In this document: positions 49,872 to 58,926 of the stretch, one piece after another
Layout of the letters: each line of letters opens with the position of its first letter
How positions within the stretch are numbered: position 1 is the stretch's first letter
NCBI RefSeq assembly: GCF_015277515.1
Contig: NZ_CP063767.1
Span: 1,178,001-1,242,000 of the forward strand
Source of the DNA: Thermophilibacter immobilis
GTDB taxonomy: Bacteria; Actinomycetota; Coriobacteriia; Coriobacteriales; Atopobiaceae
DNA length: 64,000 nt
Direction: 5' to 3'
The notes under the pieces: model-generated
Seen by the model: only the letters and a program-made list of their open reading frames with translations
Databases searched by the model: none
What the model was told of the DNA's origin: nothing
Position numbers and translations under genes: made by a program

Positions 49872-50891
49872 ATGATCGCAGTCGTCAAGAACACGGCCAC
49901 GCCCGAGCAGATCGCCCACTTCGTCGGGTGGATTGAGAGCAAGGGCCTCAAGACGGACATCTCCAGGGGAGACAACACCACCATCATCGGGCTGGTGGGT
50001 GACACCACGCTCATCGACCCCTACCTCATCGAGGGCATGGACATCGTCGAGCGCGTCCAACGCGTCTCGGAGCCGTTCAAGAAGGCCAACCGCAAGTTCC
50101 ACCCGCACGACACCGTCATAGACTGCGGCCGCGGCGTCCTGGTGGGCGCCGGCCACTTCCAGGTCATCGCTGGCCCGTGCTCGGTCGAGGGCGAAAGCCT
50201 CATCCGCATCGCGCGCGAGGTCAAGGCCGCCGGCGCCACCATGCTGCGCGGGGGTGCCTACAAGCCCCGCACCTCCCCCTACTCCTACCAGGGCATGGGC
50301 ACCGAGGGCCTCGACCTGCTCTGCGAGGCGCGCGCCGAGCTGGACATGCCCGTCGTGACCGAGATCATGGACCCGCGCGACGTGGGGGCGTTCCTAGACC
50401 GCAAGATCGAGGTCTGGCAGATAGGGGCCCGCAACTCCCAGAACTTCCCCCTGCTCAAGGAGGTCGGCAAGACCGACGCCGTCATCCTGCTCAAGCGCGG
50501 CATCGCCGGCACGATCGACGAGCTGCTCATGGCCGCCGAGTACGTCATGAGCGAGGGCAACCCCAACGTGATCGTCTGCGAGCGGGGCATCCGCTCCTTC
50601 GAGACCCGCACGAGGAACACCTTCGACCTTAACGCCGTGCCGGTGCTGCACGACCTCACGCACCTACCCGTCTGCGCCGACCCGAGTCACGCGACCGGCC
50701 ACACGCGCTACGTGGGCCCCATGGCGCTGGCCGCCACGGCAGCAGGGGCCGACTGCCTAGAGATCGAGGTGCACGACGACCCCAAGCACGCCTGGTCGGA
50801 CGGTGCCCAGGCGCTCACGCCCGCGCAGTTTGCCGACACCATGACTCGCGTCGCCAAGGTGCGCGAGGCAATCATGATGGAGGTCGAGTAG
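49872..50891 (+). CDS. aroF: 3-deoxy-7-phosphoheptulonate synthase, type I-beta with regulatory domain
   Basis: Condenses PEP and erythrose-4-phosphate, the entry to the shikimate pathway. The N-terminal ~70 residues (VVKNTATPEQIAHFVGWI... ISRGDNTTIIGLVGD) form the ferredoxin-like regulatory domain of the Thermotoga-type enzyme, usually the site of Tyr/Phe feedback. The TIM barrel follows with IAGPCSVEGES, LRGGAYKPRTSPYSYQG, QIGARNSQNFPLL, LLKRGIAGTIDE and ADPSHATG. 339 residues. GGGAGAG lies before the ATG; a TATGAT (-10-like) at 49824-49829 gives a ~36-nt leader, without a clear -35. First gene of the aro cluster. Confidence 0.95.
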   Translation: MIAVVKNTATPEQIAHFVGWIESKGLKTDISRGDNTTIIGLVGDTTLIDPYLIEGMDIVERVQRVSEPFKKANRKFHPHDTVIDCGRGVLVGAGHFQVIAGPCSVEGESLIRIAREVKAAGATMLRGGAYKPRTSPYSYQGMGTEGLDLLCEARAELDMPVVTEIMDPRDVGAFLDRKIEVWQIGARNSQNFPLLKEVGKTDAVILLKRGIAGTIDELLMAAEYVMSEGNPNVIVCERGIRSFETRTRNTFDLNAVPVLHDLTHLPVCADPSHATGHTRYVGPMALAATAAGADCLEIEVHDDPKHAWSDGAQALTPAQFADTMTRVAKVREAIMMEVE

Positions 50892-50894
50892 CCC

Positions 50895-51794
50895 ATGGCG
50901 CAAGACGCTCAGAGCCCCGCCGAGAAGAGCGGCGTCGTCGCCGGGCGCGTGGGCGTCGTGGGCCTCGGGCTCATCGGCGGCTCAATCGCCCGTGCGCTGT
51001 CACGCGCAGGCCGCGAGGTCTACGCTCTCGACCTCGACGAGGACATCGAGCGCTTCGCGGCCATAGAGACCACGGCCGGCACGCTCACCGACGAGCTCGT
51101 GGGCACCTGCGAGCTCGTCGTGCTCGCCTGCTACCCTGAGGGCTGCGTGGACTGGCTGCACGCGCACGCCGACCTCGTGAGCGCGCACGCCATCGTCATC
51201 GACACGGGCGGCGTCAAGCGCTCGGTCTGCGAGCCCTGCTTCGAGATCGCGCGCGCGGCCGGCATCACCTTTCTGGGATGCCACCCCATGGCCGGCACGC
51301 AGTTCTCCGGCTACGCGCACTCCCGGGCAGATATGTTCGAGGGCGCGCCCCTGGTCGTGTGCCCGCCGCCCGAGGTGCGCGGCGTGACCTGCCTCGCGCT
51401 CGTCGACCGCCTCGAGGGCCTGTTGGCCCCCTGCGGCTTCGGGCGCCTCACCGTCACCACACCCGAGCGCCACGACGAGGTCATCGCCTACACCTCGCAG
51501 CTCGCCCACGTGGTCTCCAGCGCCTACGTCAAGAGCCCCACGCTCGCGCGGCACGAGGGGTTCTCGGCGGGGTCGTACAAGGACCTCACGCGCGTGGCAC
51601 GGCTCAACCCCCAGATGTGGTGCGAGCTGTTCCTGGACGACGCCGACAACCTCGCATCCGAGATCGGCACCCTCGTGGGCGCGCTCAACCGCTACAAGGA
51701 GGCCCTCGAGGCGCGCGACGCCGAGCGCCTCACCGAGCTCCTCGCCGAGGGGGACCGCCTCAAGCGCTCCGACGAGAGGGAGGACGAGGTCTGA
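50895..51794 (+). CDS. tyrA: prephenate dehydrogenase
   Basis: NAD(P)-dependent oxidation of prephenate to 4-hydroxyphenylpyruvate for tyrosine. The Rossmann start VGVVGLGLIGGSIARALS, GGVKRSVCEP, the substrate block GCHPMAGTQFSGYAHS and YTSQLAHVVSSAYV are diagnostic. 299 residues, without a C-terminal ACT domain, so feedback control is likely elsewhere. It starts 3 nt after aroF and overlaps aroB by one base. Confidence 0.93.
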   Translation: MAQDAQSPAEKSGVVAGRVGVVGLGLIGGSIARALSRAGREVYALDLDEDIERFAAIETTAGTLTDELVGTCELVVLACYPEGCVDWLHAHADLVSAHAIVIDTGGVKRSVCEPCFEIARAAGITFLGCHPMAGTQFSGYAHSRADMFEGAPLVVCPPPEVRGVTCLALVDRLEGLLAPCGFGRLTVTTPERHDEVIAYTSQLAHVVSSAYVKSPTLARHEGFSAGSYKDLTRVARLNPQMWCELFLDDADNLASEIGTLVGALNRYKEALEARDAERLTELLAEGDRLKRSDEREDEV

Positions 51795-52915
51795 TGACAC
51801 TCGAGAACAAACAATGTGCCGAGAAGAGCGTCATCCACGTGGACACGAGCTCGCGCCCCTATGATGTCCACGTGGGTGCCGGGAACCTCTGCCAGCTGGG
51901 AGCGATCGCCCGTGCCAGCGCAGGCGGCGCGCGCTGCTGCGTGATCTCGGAGACCAACGTTGCCCCCCTCTACGCGGACGCGGCCGAGAAGTCCCTCGCC
52001 GCCGCCGGCTACGACGTCGCCGAGCGCCTCGTCTTCGCGGCCGGGGAGGGCTCCAAGCGACTCCCCGTCCTCGCCGACCTGCTCGAGGGCCTCGCCGCGC
52101 GCGAGCTCGGGCGCGCAGACGTCGTCATCGCCCTGGGCGGCGGCGTCACCGGAGACATCGCGGGGCTCGCGGCCGCGCTGTACCTGCGCGGCTGCGAGGT
52201 CGTCCAGGTTCCCACGTCGCTGCTCGCGATGGTCGACTCGTCGGTCGGTGGCAAGACCGCCGTTGACCTGGCGGCCGGCAAGAACCTCGTGGGGGCCTTC
52301 TGGCAGCCCGCGGCCGTCGTGGCCGACGTGCGCTGCCTCTCCACGGTCTCGCCTGCGCTGCTCACGGACTCCTGCGGCGAGGTGATAAAGCACGCGGTCC
52401 TCGACGACGCCGCGCTCCTCGACGAGCTCGCGCGAAGCCCCCTCAACGGCCCCGAGACCGACGAGAGCCGCATGGCCCGGGTGGTCGCGAGAAACGTCTC
52501 CATCAAGAGGGACGTCGTCGCGGCCGACGAACGCGAGAGCGGCCTGCGCCAGACGCTCAACCTCGGCCACACGATCGGCCACGCCATCGAGGCCGCGAGC
52601 GACTTCTCGCTCGGCCACGGATCCTGCGTCGCGGCGGGCCTGTGCTGCATGGCGCGCGCCTCCGAGCGCAGGGGGTGGTGCTCGCCGCAGACCTGCGAGC
52701 GCATCGAGCGCTGCGTGATCGCTCACGGCTTGCCCGCGGACACCGAGCTTTCCCACGACGTCCTCATGGGCTATGTCGCCCACGACAAGAAACGTCACGG
52801 TGCCACGGTCAGCATCGTCGTGCCCGAGGAGATCGCCCGCGTCCGCCTGCGCACCGTAAGCCTCGAGGAGCTGGCACAGCTCGTGGAGCTCGGCTGCGGG
52901 GTGCGAGGCGCATGA
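51794..52915 (+). CDS. aroB: 3-dehydroquinate synthase
   Basis: Cyclises DAHP to 3-dehydroquinate with NAD and a metal. ALGGGVTGDIAGLAAALYLRG, VPTSLLAMVDSSVGGKTAVD, KNLVGAFWQP, CGEVIKHAVL and NLGHTIGHAIEAA supply the NAD- and metal-binding residues. 373 residues from the ATG of TGATG, which overlaps the tyrA stop; the frame is open much further upstream, but only as antiphase reading of tyrA. Confidence 0.95.
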   Translation: MTLENKQCAEKSVIHVDTSSRPYDVHVGAGNLCQLGAIARASAGGARCCVISETNVAPLYADAAEKSLAAAGYDVAERLVFAAGEGSKRLPVLADLLEGLAARELGRADVVIALGGGVTGDIAGLAAALYLRGCEVVQVPTSLLAMVDSSVGGKTAVDLAAGKNLVGAFWQPAAVVADVRCLSTVSPALLTDSCGEVIKHAVLDDAALLDELARSPLNGPETDESRMARVVARNVSIKRDVVAADERESGLRQTLNLGHTIGHAIEAASDFSLGHGSCVAAGLCCMARASERRGWCSPQTCERIERCVIAHGLPADTELSHDVLMGYVAHDKKRHGATVSIVVPEEIARVRLRTVSLEELAQLVELGCGVRGA

Positions 52916-54225
52916 ACCTCGTCATCGACCCCGGAGCCCTGACGGGCGAGGTCCGGGCGCCCTCGTCCAAGTCGGAGGCGCACCGCCTGCTCATCTGCGC
53001 CGCCCTCTCGGCGGACACCACCGACGTCGACTGCGCGACCACCTCGGCCGACATCGACGCCACCGTCTCGTGCCTCGAGGCCCTCGGCGCGCACGTGGCC
53101 CGCACGAGGCGCGGCTTTCGCGTGGTGGGCCTGCCCCGCGACGCCTCGGGGCGGCCCCGTCCCGCGCAGGGCGCGCTTCTCGACTGCGGCGAGTCCGGCT
53201 CCACCCTGCGCTTCCTTTTGCCCGTCGCCTGCGCCCTCGGCGCCGAGGCGCGCCTCACGGGCCGCGGTCGGCTCCCTGAGCGGCCACTCTCCCCGCTCTA
53301 CGAGGGGCTCGTCGCCCACGGCTGCGAGCTCTCGGCGCAGGGGCGGATGCCGCTCGCCACGGGGGGCCGCCTGGGGGCCGGCCGCTTCGAGCTGCCCGGA
53401 GACGTCTCGTCGCAGTACGTGAGCGGTCTGCTCATGGCGGCCCCCCTCACCGGCGGCGCCGTCGAGGTCCTGGTGAGCGAGCCGGTCGAGTCGCGCCCGT
53501 ACGTGGGCCTGACCATGGACGCGCTGTCCCGTTTCGGCGTCGAGGTGGGCGAGGGGCCCGCGACCACCAAGGGCGGCAGCCCCGCGCGGCTCTTCGTCGT
53601 CGACGCACCGTGCGGCTTCGTCTCCCCCGGCACGGTCGAGGTGGGCGGGGACTGGTCCAACGCCGCGTTCTGGCTCGCGGCCGGCGCCCTGGGCGCCGAC
53701 GGCGTCGCCGTCACCGGTGCAGACGTGCAGAGCGCACAGGGCGACCGCCAGATCCTGGGGGCCCTGGCCCTGCTCGGCGCGCGCATCGTGCGCAGCAGGG
53801 CCAGCGTGGCCTGCGCCCCGGACCACCTGGCGGGGCGCATCCTCGACGTGAAGAGCTGCCCCGACCTCGTGCCTCCCCTGGCCGCGGTGGCCGCCGTCGC
53901 CACGGGCACCACGCACGTCGTGGGGGCCGCGCGGCTGCGCCTCAAGGAGTCCGACCGCCTTGCCACCGTCTCGGCCGCCGTCAACGCCCTGGGCGGGTGC
54001 GCCGAGGTCACGGGCGACGGCCTTGTCATAGAGGGCACCGACGAGCTCGCCGGCGGCACCGTCGACGCCGCCAACGACCACCGCATCGCCATGATGGCCG
54101 CCGTTCTCGCCACGCGCTGCTCGGGCCCCACCACCATCGTGGGCGCCGAGTGCGTCTCCAAGTCGTATCCCGCCTTCTTCGAGGACTTCGCCACCCTGGG
54201 CGGAGCCGTCAGAAAGGAGAGCTGA
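52912..54225 (+). CDS. aroA: 3-phosphoshikimate 1-carboxyvinyltransferase (EPSP synthase)
   Basis: Adds the enolpyruvyl group of PEP to shikimate-3-phosphate. APSSKSEAHRLLICAALS at the N-terminus, LDCGESGSTLRFLLPV, GDVSSQYVSGLLMAAPL, RLRLKESDRLATV and AANDHRIAMMAAVLA are the substrate-site blocks. 437 residues, normal. The ATG overlaps the aroB stop by 4 nt (ATGA). Confidence 0.95.
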   Translation: MNLVIDPGALTGEVRAPSSKSEAHRLLICAALSADTTDVDCATTSADIDATVSCLEALGAHVARTRRGFRVVGLPRDASGRPRPAQGALLDCGESGSTLRFLLPVACALGAEARLTGRGRLPERPLSPLYEGLVAHGCELSAQGRMPLATGGRLGAGRFELPGDVSSQYVSGLLMAAPLTGGAVEVLVSEPVESRPYVGLTMDALSRFGVEVGEGPATTKGGSPARLFVVDAPCGFVSPGTVEVGGDWSNAAFWLAAGALGADGVAVTGADVQSAQGDRQILGALALLGARIVRSRASVACAPDHLAGRILDVKSCPDLVPPLAAVAAVATGTTHVVGAARLRLKESDRLATVSAAVNALGGCAEVTGDGLVIEGTDELAGGTVDAANDHRIAMMAAVLATRCSGPTTIVGAECVSKSYPAFFEDFATLGGAVRKES

Positions 54226-55340
54226 TGCCGTCTTCTCTGGGCTGCGCCCTCAAGGTCACGATCTTCGGCCAGTCCCACTCCGCCGCCGTCGGATGCGTCA
54301 TCGAGGGCCTGCCAGCCGGCCTGCGCGTGGACCAGGGGGCCCTCGCGGCCTTCGTGGCCCGGCGCGCCCCCGGCAAGGCCCCCTGGGGCACCCCGCGCAA
54401 GGAGCCAGACGTCCCGCGCATCGTGAGCGGCCTCAACCCACGCGGCGAGACCTGCGGCGCGCCCCTGGCCGCCCTCATCGAGAACACCAACACGCGCTCG
54501 GCCGACTACAACAACCTCATGGCCGTCCCGCGCCCGGGCCACGCCGACTTCGCCGCCTGGGCCAAGTGGCACGGCGCCCAGGACGTCCCCGGGGGCGGGC
54601 ACTTCTCGGGTCGCCTGACCGGGCCCCTGTGCCTGGCAGGGGGTCTGGCCCTGCAGTGGCTCGCCACCCAGGGCGTCGACGTGCGCGCCCACGTCGCCGA
54701 GCTCGCGGGCATCGCCGACGAGCCCCTCCGCGCCCTCGACAACTCCCCCGCCGCCCAGGCCGAGCTCGCCCGCCAGATGGCAGCGCTAGCCGACGGCCGT
54801 GACTTCCCCACGATCGACGAGGGGGCCGGACGGCGCATGGCCGAGGCCGTCATGGACGCCCGCTCGAAGAAGGACACCGTGGGCGGCGTCATCGAGTGCG
54901 TGGCCACGGGGCTTCCCGCCGGCGTGGGCTCGCCCATGTTCGACGGCATGGAGAACACCCTCGCGCGCGCCCTGTTTGGCATCCCCACGGTCAAGGGCGT
55001 GGAGTTCGGGCGCGGCTTCGAGGTCGCGCGCCTGCGCGGAACCCAGAACAACGACCCCTACGAGGTGCGCGACGGCACCTGCGTGCCGGCCACCAACAAC
55101 GCCGGGGGCATCCTCGGCGGCATCACCACGGGCGCGCCCCTGCACGTGCGCTGTGCCCTCAAGCCCATCTCGAGCGTGATGGTCGAGCAGGACTCCGTCG
55201 ACCTGACCACCATGGAGCCCGCCAAGCTCAAGATCCATGGCCGCCACGACACCACCGCCGTCATCCGCGCCGTCCCCGTGGTCGAGGGCGTCTGCGCCCT
55301 GGCCGTGGCCGACGCGCTTCTCGCCTGGCCCGCCGAGTAG
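54225..55340 (+). CDS. aroC: chorismate synthase
   Basis: FMNH2-dependent formation of chorismate from EPSP. The N-terminal block reads VTIFGQSHSAAVG, the variant with Gln and Ser in place of GESHG seen in clostridial-type enzymes. RPGHADFAAWAKW, GGGHFSGRLT, a DSVD-containing C-terminal block and HDTTAVIRAVPVVE complete the family. 371 residues. TGATG overlap with aroA. Confidence 0.94.
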   Translation: MPSSLGCALKVTIFGQSHSAAVGCVIEGLPAGLRVDQGALAAFVARRAPGKAPWGTPRKEPDVPRIVSGLNPRGETCGAPLAALIENTNTRSADYNNLMAVPRPGHADFAAWAKWHGAQDVPGGGHFSGRLTGPLCLAGGLALQWLATQGVDVRAHVAELAGIADEPLRALDNSPAAQAELARQMAALADGRDFPTIDEGAGRRMAEAVMDARSKKDTVGGVIECVATGLPAGVGSPMFDGMENTLARALFGIPTVKGVEFGRGFEVARLRGTQNNDPYEVRDGTCVPATNNAGGILGGITTGAPLHVRCALKPISSVMVEQDSVDLTTMEPAKLKIHGRHDTTAVIRAVPVVEGVCALAVADALLAWPAE

Positions 55341-55385: not shown

Positions 55386-56537
55386 ATGGCAGAACTTCCC
55401 GAGCTCAGACAGGACATCGATCGTATCGACGCCCAGATATTCCGGCTCTTCGCCGAGCGCGCCGACACCTCCGAGGGCATCGCCGCCTACAAGAGGGAGC
55501 ACGGCCTACCCGTCTTCGACCCCACGCGCGAGCGGCAGAAGGTCGCCGGGGCCAGCGAGGGCGTCCCCGCCGACCTCAGGACCTACGCCCAGGTCCTCAT
55601 GGAGCTCCTCATGGAGGCCTCCCGCGCCCGCCAGCACGCGCTTCTCGACGCGGGCGAGAAGGACGACACCACGGCGCGCATCGCGGACGCCCGCGCGCGC
55701 ACGCCCGAGCTCTTCCCGCCGAGCTCCCACGTGGCCTGCCAGGGGGTCGAGGGCGCCTACTCGCAGATCGCGACCGAGCGCTTCTTCCGACATCCCTCCA
55801 TCAGCTACTTCGACTCCTTCGAGGGGGTCTTCCGCGCGGTCGAGCAGGGCTTCTCCGACTACGGCGTGCTGCCCGTGGAGAACTCCACGGCCGGCTCGGT
55901 CAACGAGGTCTTCGACCTCATGATGGAGCACTCCTTCTCCGTGGTGCGCACCACGCGCGTCAAGATCGACCACAACCTCCTGGCCAGGCCCGGGACCACC
56001 CTGTCGGAAGTGCGCGACGTCTACAGCCACGAGCAGGCCATCAACCAGTGCGGGGCCTTTCTCGCCGGGCTCGACGGGGTGCGCGTCCACGTCTGCGAGA
56101 ACACCGCGATGGCCGCCCGCCAGGTGGCCGAGTCCGACCGCGCGGACGTGGCCGCTCTCTCGTCGCGCTCCTGCGCCGGCCTCTACGGCCTCGACGTCCT
56201 CGCCGAGTCGGTCCAGGACCGCGACAACAACTACACCCGCTTCGCCTGCATCTCCAAGAGGCTCGAGATCTACCCCGGGGCCAACCGCACCTCGCTCATG
56301 ATCGTGCTCCCCCACGCCCCCGGCTCCCTCTACAAGCTGCTCGCCAAGTTCTACGCCCTCGACATCAACATCCTGAAGCTCGAGAGCCGCCCCATCCCCG
56401 AGCGCGACTTCGAGTTCATGTTCTACTTCGACGTCGACTGCCCCGTGGCCGCGCCCGAGTTCTCCACGCTCATGTCCACGATCGGCAGCCTCTGCCAGGA
56501 GTGCCGCTACCTGGGCAGCTACGCGGAGGTGCTCTGA
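55386..56537 (+). CDS. pheA: bifunctional chorismate mutase/prephenate dehydratase (P-protein)
   Basis: Converts chorismate to prephenate and on to phenylpyruvate. The N-terminal ~90 residues are an AroQ-type chorismate mutase helix bundle (LRQDIDRIDAQIFRLFAERA), then the dehydratase with VACQGVEGAYSQIA, LPVENSTAGSVNEV and the NNYTRFACIS loop, then a C-terminal ACT domain (SLMIVLPHAPGSLYKLLAKF, LESRPIPERDFEFMFY) for Phe feedback. 383 residues. It starts 45 nt after aroC, the largest gap within the cluster. Confidence 0.95.
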   Translation: MAELPELRQDIDRIDAQIFRLFAERADTSEGIAAYKREHGLPVFDPTRERQKVAGASEGVPADLRTYAQVLMELLMEASRARQHALLDAGEKDDTTARIADARARTPELFPPSSHVACQGVEGAYSQIATERFFRHPSISYFDSFEGVFRAVEQGFSDYGVLPVENSTAGSVNEVFDLMMEHSFSVVRTTRVKIDHNLLARPGTTLSEVRDVYSHEQAINQCGAFLAGLDGVRVHVCENTAMAARQVAESDRADVAALSSRSCAGLYGLDVLAESVQDRDNNYTRFACISKRLEIYPGANRTSLMIVLPHAPGSLYKLLAKFYALDINILKLESRPIPERDFEFMFYFDVDCPVAAPEFSTLMSTIGSLCQECRYLGSYAEVL

Positions 56538-57817
56538 TGAGCGAGAAGTCCGCCGTCCCGTACGGCCTCGTGGGGCGCACGCTCGGGCACAGCTGGTCGC
56601 CTCAGATCCACGCGCGCCTGGGCTCCGCGCCCTACGACCTCTTCGAGCTGGAGCCCGACGAGCTCGCCGGCTTCGTCCGCGGCGGCTCCTGGGCGGGCCT
56701 CAACGTCACCATCCCCTACAAGCACGAGGCCGCGCTTCTCGCTGACGTTCGCTCGACGCGCGTGGAGCGCCTCGGCGCGGCCAACACCCTCGTGCGCCAA
56801 CAGGACGGCTCCGTCCTGGCCGAGAACACCGACGTGCTCGGCTTCTCCTGGATGCTCGAGCGCTTCTGCCGGCGCGAGCTCGCGGGCGCACCCGCCGACG
56901 TGCTCGGGGGGCGCGACGTGCTGGTCCTGGGCGACGGGGGCGCCTCGAGCGCCGTGCGCGCGGCGCTCGAGGATGACGCCCGCGCACGGGTGAGCGTCAT
57001 CTCGCGCCATGGGAGGGACACCTACGACACGCTCCTCGAGCGCCATGCCGATGCCGCCCTCGTAGTGAACGCCACCCCCGTGGGGATGTACCCGTCGTGT
57101 CCCGCCTCGCCCCTCTCCGCCCAGACGCTCGACGGCCTCACGGGGCTTCTCGGCGTGCTGGACGTCGTGTACAACCCGGCCCGCACGGGGCTGTGCCTGG
57201 CCGCCGAGAGGCGCGGCCTGCCCTTCGAGAGCGGTCTTTCCATGCTCGTCGCCCAGGCGTTCCGCTCAAGCGAGCTCTTCCAGGGCCGCGCGCTCGACGA
57301 CGCGCTCGTGGGGCGGATTGCGGGCGAGATCTTCGCGCAGACGGAGAACGTGGTGCTCATCGGCATGCCGGGGGCGGGCAAGACGAGCTGCGGCCGGCGC
57401 TTCGCGCGCCTCTTGGGCCGTCCCTTCGTGGACGTCGACGAGGTCATCTCCACCGAGCAGGGCCGCAGGCCCGGCCAGATCATCCGCGAGGACGGCGAGA
57501 AGGCCTTTCGTGCCCTCGAGTCCGCGGCCACCGGTCGCTACGGCGCGCGCTCGGGCCTGGTCATCGCCTGCGGAGGCGGCGTCGTCACCCGCCCCGAGAA
57601 CTATGACCTGCTGCACCAGAACGGTCGCATCGTCTTTCTGGACCGTCCGCTCGCCGAGCTGAGCGCGCAGGGACGCCCCCTGTCGCAGGCCCGCGGCGTC
57701 GAGCAGCTCGCCGCCGAGCGCATGGGGTCCTATCGGGCGTGGGCGGACATCGTCGTGTCCTGCACCGGGTCCCCCGCCTCCGACGCGGAGCTGATCGCAA
57801 GCCTCCTGCGCGTCTAG
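56537..57817 (+). CDS. aroEK: shikimate dehydrogenase::shikimate kinase fusion
   Basis: One polypeptide of 426 residues with two consecutive shikimate-pathway activities. Residues ~1-265 are shikimate dehydrogenase: GLVGRTLGHSWSPQIHARLG, LNVTIPYKHEA, GAANTLV, VLVLGDGGASSAVRAAL and VVNATPVGMYP. Residues ~272-426 are shikimate kinase: VVLIGMPGAGKTSCGRRFA (P-loop), FVDVDEVI, FRALESAA and IACGGGVVTRPEN. The ATG of TGATG overlaps the pheA stop; the longer upstream frame is antiphase reading of pheA. The fusion orders the two steps that bracket free shikimate. Confidence 0.94.
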   Translation: MSEKSAVPYGLVGRTLGHSWSPQIHARLGSAPYDLFELEPDELAGFVRGGSWAGLNVTIPYKHEAALLADVRSTRVERLGAANTLVRQQDGSVLAENTDVLGFSWMLERFCRRELAGAPADVLGGRDVLVLGDGGASSAVRAALEDDARARVSVISRHGRDTYDTLLERHADAALVVNATPVGMYPSCPASPLSAQTLDGLTGLLGVLDVVYNPARTGLCLAAERRGLPFESGLSMLVAQAFRSSELFQGRALDDALVGRIAGEIFAQTENVVLIGMPGAGKTSCGRRFARLLGRPFVDVDEVISTEQGRRPGQIIREDGEKAFRALESAATGRYGARSGLVIACGGGVVTRPENYDLLHQNGRIVFLDRPLAELSAQGRPLSQARGVEQLAAERMGSYRAWADIVVSCTGSPASDAELIASLLRV

Positions 57818-57880: not shown

Positions 57881-57892
57881 GGCACGTATACT
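57865..57892 (+). promoter_or_regulatory. promoter of EIIB::aroQ
   Basis: TTGTGC (-35, 57865-57870) and TATACT (-10, 57887-57892) are 16 nt apart, in the 170-nt gap after aroEK. It gives the last aro gene its own transcript with a ~90-nt leader. Just upstream, at 57818-57860, mutually exclusive GC-rich repeats (CCGAGCGG/CCGCTCGG and TACCGCC/GGCGGTA) could end the aroF-aroEK transcript. Confidence 0.7.
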
Positions 57893-57987
57893 GGGGCGGA
57901 AAAACCAATCGGGGGTAGTCGCGCGACAGGTGAGTGGACGGGGCCCTAGCTCGCGATTCGATAGCAGGAGGGGATCGCGGAGTGAAC

Positions 57988-58926
57988 ATGCAGCAGATAG
58001 CGGAAGAGGTTCTTGCGGCGGTGGGTGGCAAGGACAACGTCAGGGCGAACGACATCTGCATGACCCGCCTCAGAATCCTCACCGAGGACCCCTCCCTCGT
58101 GGACACCGACATGCTCTCCTCCGCCCGGGGCGTCCTGGGCTTCGTGCGCCGCGGGACCAACGGCCTCGAGGTCGTCTTCGGTCCCGGCAAGGCCGAGGCC
58201 GTCCAGGAGGCGCTCGTGGGCCTCACGGGCATCGAGCCCTCCGACGAGGTCTTCGACGCGCTGAGGGGTGCCCCCGCGTCGTCGCTGCACGTCCACATCG
58301 CGCCCAACCCCCTGCGGCGCGCGGCGGACGCCCAGCGCACGGGGCAGCAAAAGGCGACCCTGCAGCTCGCGAAGGACGACGAGACAGACGTCAGCGAGCT
58401 GATGAGCATGCTCGACAAGATGGGCCCCGCTAGCGAGAAGGCCCCCTCCGACGAGCCGGACGCTTCCGGGGACGACGGAGGCCTCCGCGCGCGCGTGCTC
58501 GTGATCAACGGGCCCAACATCAACATGCTCGGCATCCGAGAGCCCGACATCTACGGGCACGACACCTATCAGGCCCTGCTTAAGACCTGCCGCGAGGCGG
58601 CACTCGAGGCGGGCTTCTCCGAGTGCTCCTGCTTCCAGTCCAACCACGAGGGCGACCTCGTCGACGCCATCCAGGACGCCTACGACGACTACGACGGGAT
58701 CGTCATCAACCCCGGTGCCTACACGCACACCTCGGTCGCGATCCTCGACGCCGCCAAGGCCGTCGCTCTTCCCATGGTCGAGGTGCACATATCCAAAATC
58801 GACGAGCGTGAGGAGTTTCGCCAGGTCTCCTACATCCGCGCCGCGTGCTTCGAGACGATCGCGGGCATGGGCATCGAGGGATACCGCAGGGCCCTCTTCG
58901 ACCTGGCCAAAAGGATCGGGCTCTAG
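57988..58926 (+). CDS. aroQ: PTS EIIB-like domain fused to type II 3-dehydroquinate dehydratase
   Basis: The C-terminal ~145 residues (from about 168) are a complete type II dehydroquinase: INGPNINMLGIREPDIYG with the catalytic Tyr, FQSNHEGDLVDAIQ, VINPGAYTHTSVAI and VEVHISKIDEREEFR with the catalytic His. The N-terminal ~80 residues match a glucose-family PTS EIIB: VLAAVGGKDNV, then DICMTRLRI with Cys24 where EIIB is phosphorylated, ending LEVVFGPGKAEAV. An ~85-residue acidic Ala/Asp/Ser-rich linker joins them. No EIIC or EIIA is nearby. GGAG lies 5 nt before the ATG at 57988; a GTG two codons earlier is possible. 312 residues against ~150 for ordinary AroQ. Confidence 0.88.
   Translation: MQQIAEEVLAAVGGKDNVRANDICMTRLRILTEDPSLVDTDMLSSARGVLGFVRRGTNGLEVVFGPGKAEAVQEALVGLTGIEPSDEVFDALRGAPASSLHVHIAPNPLRRAADAQRTGQQKATLQLAKDDETDVSELMSMLDKMGPASEKAPSDEPDASGDDGGLRARVLVINGPNINMLGIREPDIYGHDTYQALLKTCREAALEAGFSECSCFQSNHEGDLVDAIQDAYDDYDGIVINPGAYTHTSVAILDAAKAVALPMVEVHISKIDEREEFRQVSYIRAACFETIAGMGIEGYRRALFDLAKRIGL

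Follow-up and report, generated by a model that had tools for sequence, protein, structure and literature searches.

A PTS EIIB domain fused to the shikimate enzyme AroQ across a bacterial family: a candidate link between sugar state and aromatic synthesis

Across the bacterial family of Thermophilibacter immobilis, the Atopobiaceae, a glucose-family EIIB domain of the phosphotransferase system (PTS) is joined to the type II dehydroquinase AroQ, and it makes a candidate PTS-shikimate link conserved across that family. Two genera provide a natural experiment: there AroQ has died or is missing, and the EIIB is still in place with its phospho-cysteine. From this pattern of conservation we conclude that the EIIB, here called aro-EIIB, has a selected job that does not depend on dehydroquinase activity and is nonetheless linked to the aromatic pathway. 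PEP is consumed by the PTS and at two points in the shikimate pathway, yet no protein that joins these systems directly is known to us. The family is one of gut and mouth bacteria. The window, by which we mean the whole stretch of DNA that was analysed, is 64,000 nucleotides long (NZ_CP063767.1, positions 1,178,001 to 1,242,000) and lies in a genome of 2.16 Mb assembled as a single contig; a DNA search of plasmids gave no match.

Results

The fusion is encoded by a single open reading frame (57988-58926, +) that opens with ATG 57988 and gives a product of 312 residues. Alignment with relatives indicates that GTG 57982, two codons upstream, may be the true start. The original prediction, made from the letters alone, had described an EIIB pattern at the N-terminus, and Pfam bears this out: PTS_EIIB (PF00367) matches residues 6-39 with E 2e-11 and 43.5 bits against a cut-off of 27. 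Taking Pfam, phmmer and the AlphaFold (AF2) model together, the glucose-family domain spans residues 1-82 (57988-58233, +). E. coli IIB-Glc (3bp3), the nearest solved EIIB by sequence, matches residues 3-66 (phmmer, E 3.6e-7), and in NCBIfam the window protein has partial matches to glucose-superfamily IIBC transporters. PF00367 also recognises relatives, scoring 41.2 bits on a protein of genus g31 and 35.3 bits on a standalone EIIB (cut-off 27). Residues 1-90 of the AlphaFold model run helix-strand-strand-helix-strand-strand-helix with a block-mean pLDDT of 92-98; the rows listed by fold searches with the fusion models are dehydroquinases, the queries having included AroQ.

The C-terminal part (58492-58923, +) is a complete type II 3-dehydroquinate dehydratase with its catalytic Tyr and His, just as had been read from the translation. 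DHquinase_II (PF01220) covers residues 169-304 (E 5e-55), the AroQ equivalog TIGR01088 scores 174.9 bits against a cut-off of 169.85, and from residue 167 onward the AlphaFold model has the dehydroquinase fold, with a VIA Z of 26.2 and 1.1 A over 145 residues to 8idr_D. Key residues were placed on the fusions by motif, in the numbering of the M. tuberculosis enzyme, whose catalytic and substrate residues are described in part of PMC6011038. Structural alignment to 1h05 gives the same residue offset as the motif placement (165 at the start, 166 at the end). In the window AroQ the catalytic Arg19, Tyr24, Asp88 and His101 and the substrate residues are all present, Tyr24 being Tyr189 of the fusion and His101 its His267. 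Overall, the model consists of two confident domains with a disordered linker between them, and Pfam, at E values up to 1, finds no domain in the window fusion beyond PF00367 and PF01220.

The linker (residues 83-168; 58234-58491, +) is mostly disordered, its block-mean pLDDT falling to 44 in the window protein, and it is acidic, a property also named in the original prediction: among 125 proteins the median net negative charge is 0.14 per residue and the median length 83 residues (range 60-177). Two short motifs recur within it, each counted with a regular expression made after seeing the linkers. A strand motif, LxVxI (residues 100-104; 58285-58299, +), coincides with a predicted strand at 100-104 and occurs in 98 of 128 linkers versus 11% of shuffles. 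The acidic helix motif [DE]xxxLxxLL (residues 134-143; 58387-58416, +) overlaps a predicted helix at 135-143, occurs in 116 of 128 linkers versus 7% of shuffles, and is a candidate docking motif. Stretches similar to both motifs are found in the standalone EIIBs.

Conservation of the EIIB is concentrated on its active motif. Cys24 (58057-58059, +), the predicted phosphorylated cysteine, is invariant along with Thr26, Arg27, Leu28 and Arg29 that follow it, and with Asn17 and Gly13-14, in all 124 fusions with a readable N-terminus, so the expected conservation of Cys24 among homologues is found. The counts exclude G110, in which a contig end cuts the EIIB. Cys24 is kept in 16/16 fusions of genus g31, in 5/5 AroD-bearing fusions of genus g35 and in five standalone copies; among 39 chosen sequences, the EIIB is as little as 37% identical to that of the window. 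The aro-EIIBs have the active motif in common with 30 further EIIBs from the family, most of which lie in frames as long as a transporter, and two features separate the groups. Residue 61 (58168-58170 in the window) is Glu or Asp in 124/124 aro-EIIBs versus Gln in 29 of the 30 others, and the loop preceding the last strand is longer by one residue, usually Arg55, in the aro-EIIBs than in those 30. The acidic residue at 61 could be a sign of lost phosphate transfer to sugar, and their sequences suggest that the aro-EIIBs are active, though specialised, EIIBs.

The family sample comprised 140 genomes from 35 genera. EIIB and AroQ (PF00367 and PF01220) share one frame in 125 of these genomes and in 31 of the 35 genera (genera counted by hand), which settles in favour of the original prediction that the fusion is real. 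The 125 come from 126 of the 137 loci examined, two loci being the same gene, and include G110 despite the contig end within its EIIB. Two further fusions are split, G037 at an N-containing stretch and G081 over two contig ends, and were taken as assembly breaks; in five genomes, all of genus g35 (G122, G131, G135, G137 and G139), EIIB and linker are present and AroQ was not found. Overall, aro-EIIB is carried by 132/132 genomes with a readable aro locus, a tally that leaves out G011, G053 and G082, in which AroC is present and contig ends lie inside the operon. One frame shared by 125 of 140 genomes can be neither an assembly artefact nor a chance juxtaposition. A chance fusion, a frameshift and an assembly artefact were rejected as origins on this ground, given the spread over 31/35 genera and the constant AroEK context.

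A scan of a named contig collection gave a similar picture: among the best 80 of 90 confirmed loci, 79 are fused and one is cut by a contig end. The scan used two peptide patterns from the window's family, and distant fusions would escape it. Titles among these best 80 of 90 name Thermophilibacter, Olsenella, Tractidigestivibacter, Lancefieldella rimae, Parafannyhessea umbonata, Atopobium and Olegusella massiliensis, the others being unspecific (Coriobacteriia, Coriobacteriales, Coriobacteriaceae, actinobacterium, 'bacterium OL-1'); NCBI taxonomy places Thermophilibacter, Olsenella, Tractidigestivibacter, Lancefieldella, Parafannyhessea and Atopobium within Atopobiaceae, and Olegusella is not listed there. 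In a phylum sample of 396 genomes searched at a strict E of 1e-22, 11 matched, of which 10 are family members that matched via aro-EIIB and the eleventh is a sister-family genome with a match in a 485-residue frame; three of the 10 family members have further matches in frames of 502-538 residues. In the sister families a plain AroQ lies directly downstream of AroE-AroK in nine of 10 loci, the tenth (L210) beginning at a contig end, and in an order-wide search of 395 genomes the matches listed outside the family start at residue 115 or later, with AroQ covered and EIIB not. The plain AroQ at sister loci implies that the EIIB was added to AroQ within the window's family, and the joining probably took place on the stem of that family.

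The immediate upstream neighbour of the fusion is an AroE-AroK fusion (56537-57817, +; PF08501 and PF01202). Before it lie PheA (55386-56537, +), with chorismate mutase (PF01817) and prephenate dehydratase (PF00800) domains and an ACT domain (PF01842) at 25.5 bits, just under the cut-off of 27, and the rest of the aromatic operon (49872-55340, +): DAHP synthase, TyrA, AroB, AroA and AroC, of which AroC was assigned by PF01264 and the others by eye from the translations. In 121 of 127 loci no other gene among those looked for lies closer upstream than AroE-AroK. As to the six others, in L053 the fusion faces away from AroEK, in L076 PheA is listed between the two, and L022, L041, L098 and L134 are without AroEK upstream within the stretch read. 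The gap from AroEK to the EIIB start has a median of 176 nt (119 loci); L079, L084, L123 and L126 stand apart, with 1.3 to 3.1 kb and not ~0.2 kb between AroEK and the fusion.

Within the gap a -10-like box, TATACT (57887-57892, +), marks a possible dedicated promoter. TATACT or TATAAT occurs no more than 150 nt upstream of the start in 88 of 124 loci versus 3.5% of dinucleotide shuffles and is absent in 36, and the TATACT box is invariant in 15 aligned members of the window's genus. Upstream of the fusion a sigma-70 consensus scan found no full promoter, and a -35/-10 regular expression showed no enrichment (4/124 versus 5.7% of shuffles). The long gap together with the -10-like box suggests that the fusion has a promoter of its own. 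Downstream of the box comes a conserved non-coding leader with two hairpins predicted by RNAalifold (57934-57981, +). From 57887 to 57981 the sequence is strongly conserved within the window's genus, the genus consensus reading TATACT, then GGAG-ACGGGG-CTCC, then the second hairpin, whose arms lie at 57952-57957 and 57974-57979 and which holds the likely ribosome-binding site. For 24 sequences, one of them from another genus, RNAalifold gave 13 pairs, three of them changed on both sides, with modest covariation (a term of only -0.64 kcal/mol); against Rfam the leader matched no family, the single snoRNA match being at chance level. The leader is possibly a regulatory RNA.

In two genera AroQ has decayed. 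In genus g31, Arg19, Tyr24, His81, Arg108 and Arg112 are each present in 0/16 fusions, Asp88 is left in 3/16 and His101 in 5/16, and the EIIB is intact; the pseudo-AroQ retains Asn9, Asn12 and Asn75 in 16/16. In genus g35, AroQ is altered at key residues in five genomes and was not found in five, and the EIIB is kept. Fusions outside g31 and the five AroD-bearing g35 genomes have the AroQ key residues in 104/104, with Ser103 changed to Thr in six. The type I dehydroquinase AroD is distributed in step with this: it was found in 24 of the 140 genomes, namely 15 of the 16 g31 genomes and nine of g35, and none elsewhere in the family, and in none of the 24 is AroQ unaltered: 20 have it changed at key residues, and in 4 it was not found. 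The g31 genome in which AroD was not found is 77% complete; the genomes with a dead or missing AroQ in which AroD was not found are G071 (77% complete) and G139 (73% complete). By sequence, the nine AroD-bearing g35 genomes form a series of AroQ decay: among the residues checked only Asn12 is changed in G126, Asn12 and Arg19 are lost in G130, Arg19 and Ser103 in G132, Arg19, His81, His101 and Ser103 in G133 and all save the asparagines in G129, and AroQ was not found in G122, G131, G135 and G137. The cysteine of the EIIB is present in every genome with a changed or missing AroQ. In G131 the AroD that replaces AroQ is an AroD-AroE fusion (L160 514-2247, -; PF01487 and PF08501), and this genome keeps AroE-AroK in its aro operon besides; the frame lengths around AroD in G132 and G135 are similar to those of G131.

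Rates of change are in keeping with continued selection. Mean identity of EIIB and AroQ is 0.70 and 0.53 within g31 and 0.50 and 0.69 elsewhere, and the EIIB is the more conserved domain in 118 of 120 g31 pairs versus 189 of 5253 pairs elsewhere, the pairs being non-independent. The dead AroQ of g31 is itself still constrained (dN/dS 0.06-0.12 in three pairs), so it may still do something, and the two domains may act together. Its model, at a modest mean pLDDT of 72, has 1d0i_E as its top Foldseek match (E 6.2e-12). The standalone form, an EIIB plus linker of 145-162 residues, lies between AroEK and YgfA in 5/5 genomes, and its dN/dS is 0.02-0.19 for the EIIB (nine of 10 pairs, the tenth being saturated) and 0.12-0.42 for the tail. 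We considered whether the EIIB is a relic domain and rejected this, given the invariant motif and the low dN/dS. It also should be considered how many times AroQ was lost. In a one-gene AroEK tree (133 of 134 sequences), g31 is one clade (16/16, support 0.99) and g35 is scattered, the five standalone genomes and G132 forming a group of six with support 0.83. The g35 AroDs are 45-55% identical to the AroD of G062, a similarity by which one AroD acquisition may be shared, and the AroQ losses may not be independent. The retention of an EIIB with its cysteine in 16/16 g31 genomes with a dead AroQ, and in five g35 genomes with no AroQ found, points to a function independent of dehydroquinase activity.

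The window's genome encodes EI, HPr and a glucose-type EIIA (EIIA_1). Across the family, a search for EI was positive in 126 of 140 genomes and in 35/35 genera; of the 14 genomes in which none was found, 12 retain aro-EIIB. These 14 are drafts of ~40 or more contigs and 68 to 91% complete (four of them 90-91%), and the missing EIs are likely assembly gaps. Besides aro-EIIB, the window's genome has six PF00367 domains, each in one open reading frame with an EIIC. Of six further EIICs, four come with PTS_IIB and two are EIIC-only, of lactose/cellobiose and fructose type (NCBIfam). As every other PF00367 is paired and the further EIICs are accounted for, there is no obvious EIIC for aro-EIIB in this genome, the one examined for an orphan glucose-family EIIC, and none was found. 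Chorismate synthase AroC is without a match in five of 140 genomes (G008, G009, G010, G030 and G138), which have apparently lost the aromatic pathway; completeness is below 90% in four of them, and some absences may be assembly gaps. All five are without aro-EIIB, and in every one of them a frame of 485-683 residues matches EIIB (the match in G030 crossing a stop). Since aro-EIIB adjoins the aromatic operon, its loss with the pathway could be a simple co-deletion.

Discussion

We propose that aro-EIIB is an active PTS EIIB which has left sugar transport and, as a receiver acting in trans, would report the PTS phosphorylation state to the aromatic pathway, a reading to which we give an even chance. 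In such a scheme EI, HPr and a glucose-type EIIA would charge Cys24 according to PEP and sugar state, the glucose-family EIIA handing on its phosphate at times of abundant PEP and slow sugar import. That an EIIA of this kind could serve aro-EIIB is consistent with B. subtilis, in which EIIA domains of the glucose family also phosphorylate EIIBs of that family other than their cognate ones (PMC6148471). Either the phosphorylated or the unphosphorylated EIIB would then bind a partner in the aromatic pathway, perhaps via the linker helix; both this partner and the direction of the effect are inferred, and the partner in trans would most likely be another component or a regulator of aromatic synthesis. 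AroQ would be the first carrier of the EIIB, possibly as an oligomeric scaffold, and not its sole target, since selection on the EIIB continues where AroQ has died or been deleted. We are more tentative, and lean slightly against, the fuller proposition of a new PTS output, in which a family-wide soluble EIIB receiver would let PEP and sugar state control the shikimate pathway in trans via the acidic docking helix, with AroQ as its original carrier, replaceable by AroD.

The original prediction had the EIIB modulating the dehydroquinase to which it is joined. The parts of it that stand are the domain, by profile a real glucose-family EIIB, its conserved phospho-cysteine and the family-wide fusion, and the genome encodes EI, HPr and a glucose-type EIIA as it would require; as a sole role, modulation is not supported, given g31 and g35, where the EIIB outlives AroQ. 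A regulator acting in cis, with phosphorylation of Cys24 altering the activity or assembly of AroQ, would fit the covalent fusion retained by the 104 genomes whose AroQ active site is intact and the fact that an EIIB without AroQ was seen in g35 only. A purely cis role, however, would leave nothing to select for in genomes with a dead or missing AroQ, and there the intact-Cys EIIB persists (16/16 g31, and five g35 with no AroQ found), so we consider this account unlikely. The data argue that tuning of this dehydroquinase is not the EIIB's only role, and where AroQ is alive the EIIB may act on it also. The pseudo-AroQ of g31 lends itself to another idea, that of a multimeric scaffold displaying EIIBs and working by avidity or by titrating a PTS protein or regulator, for which E. 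coli PtsG offers a parallel, its dephosphorylated EIIB titrating Mlc. The fold kept in a modest model, Asn9, Asn12 and Asn75 in 16/16 and the low dN/dS of three pairs would all agree with a scaffold, but the standalone EIIBs of g35 have none, and we regard it as quite improbable.

One could also imagine a soluble EIIB in sugar transport, serving an EIIC without its own EIIB, with AroQ as a passenger; the Cys, the Thr and both arginines of TRLR, invariant (124/124) as in the 30 other EIIBs, would agree with this. Against it stand the failure to find any orphan glucose-family EIIC in the one genome examined, that of the window, the Glu or Asp at residue 61 in 124/124 aro-EIIBs versus Gln in 29/30 others, and the five AroC-less genomes, from which aro-EIIB is missing though other EIIB matches stay; a role in sugar transport is to us highly unlikely. 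We give hardly any credence to the idea that the EIIB plays no part in signalling and is an N-terminal addition that is neutral or aids solubility. Its lower conservation than that of AroQ where AroQ is intact (mean identity 0.50 versus 0.69) is what such an addition might show, but not the invariant catalytic motif, the low dN/dS or the survival without AroQ. The receiver in trans that we prefer is open to direct test, as a partner of the EIIB can be sought with small soluble proteins, the standalone form among them.

The original prediction knew of no described EIIB-dehydroquinase fusion, and the literature searched, mostly at abstract level, likewise contains none that we found; nor did we find there a description of an EIIB tied to the shikimate pathway or surviving the loss of its fusion partner. 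The nearest relatives of aro-EIIB are the glucose-superfamily EIIBs (PF00367; E. coli IIB-Glc, B. subtilis SacX), which it resembles in domain match, phospho-cysteine and TRLR. Unlike transport EIIBs, it is joined to a biosynthetic enzyme and not to an EIIC, sits at an aromatic locus, has Glu61 for Gln and carries the extra residue, usually Arg55. SacX sets a precedent, being a protein with an EIIB that governs the regulator SacY through phosphate transfer, according to PMC6148471. With AroQ (TIGR01088, PF01220) the window protein shares the full-length match, the fold and the active site; it differs from a plain AroQ in its N-terminal EIIB and linker, and the g31 form differs also in being without catalytic residues. 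By the name of the model, a triosephosphate isomerase-EIIB fusion (NF011497, PRK14905) likewise places an EIIB of the same superfamily on a soluble metabolic enzyme, but there the EIIB is in the C-terminal part of the model and the enzyme is glycolytic, and the window protein scores 20.9 bits over the EIIB part only, against a cut-off of 485 bits. PRD/Mga-type regulators (MafR, Mga, AtxA) also have an EIIB-like domain outside transport, as part of PMC10773906 describes, joined in their case to DNA-binding domains, of which Pfam found none in the window fusion. EIIB-like domains outside transport are thus already known, and aro-EIIB points to an unrecognised link between sugar state and aromatic synthesis.
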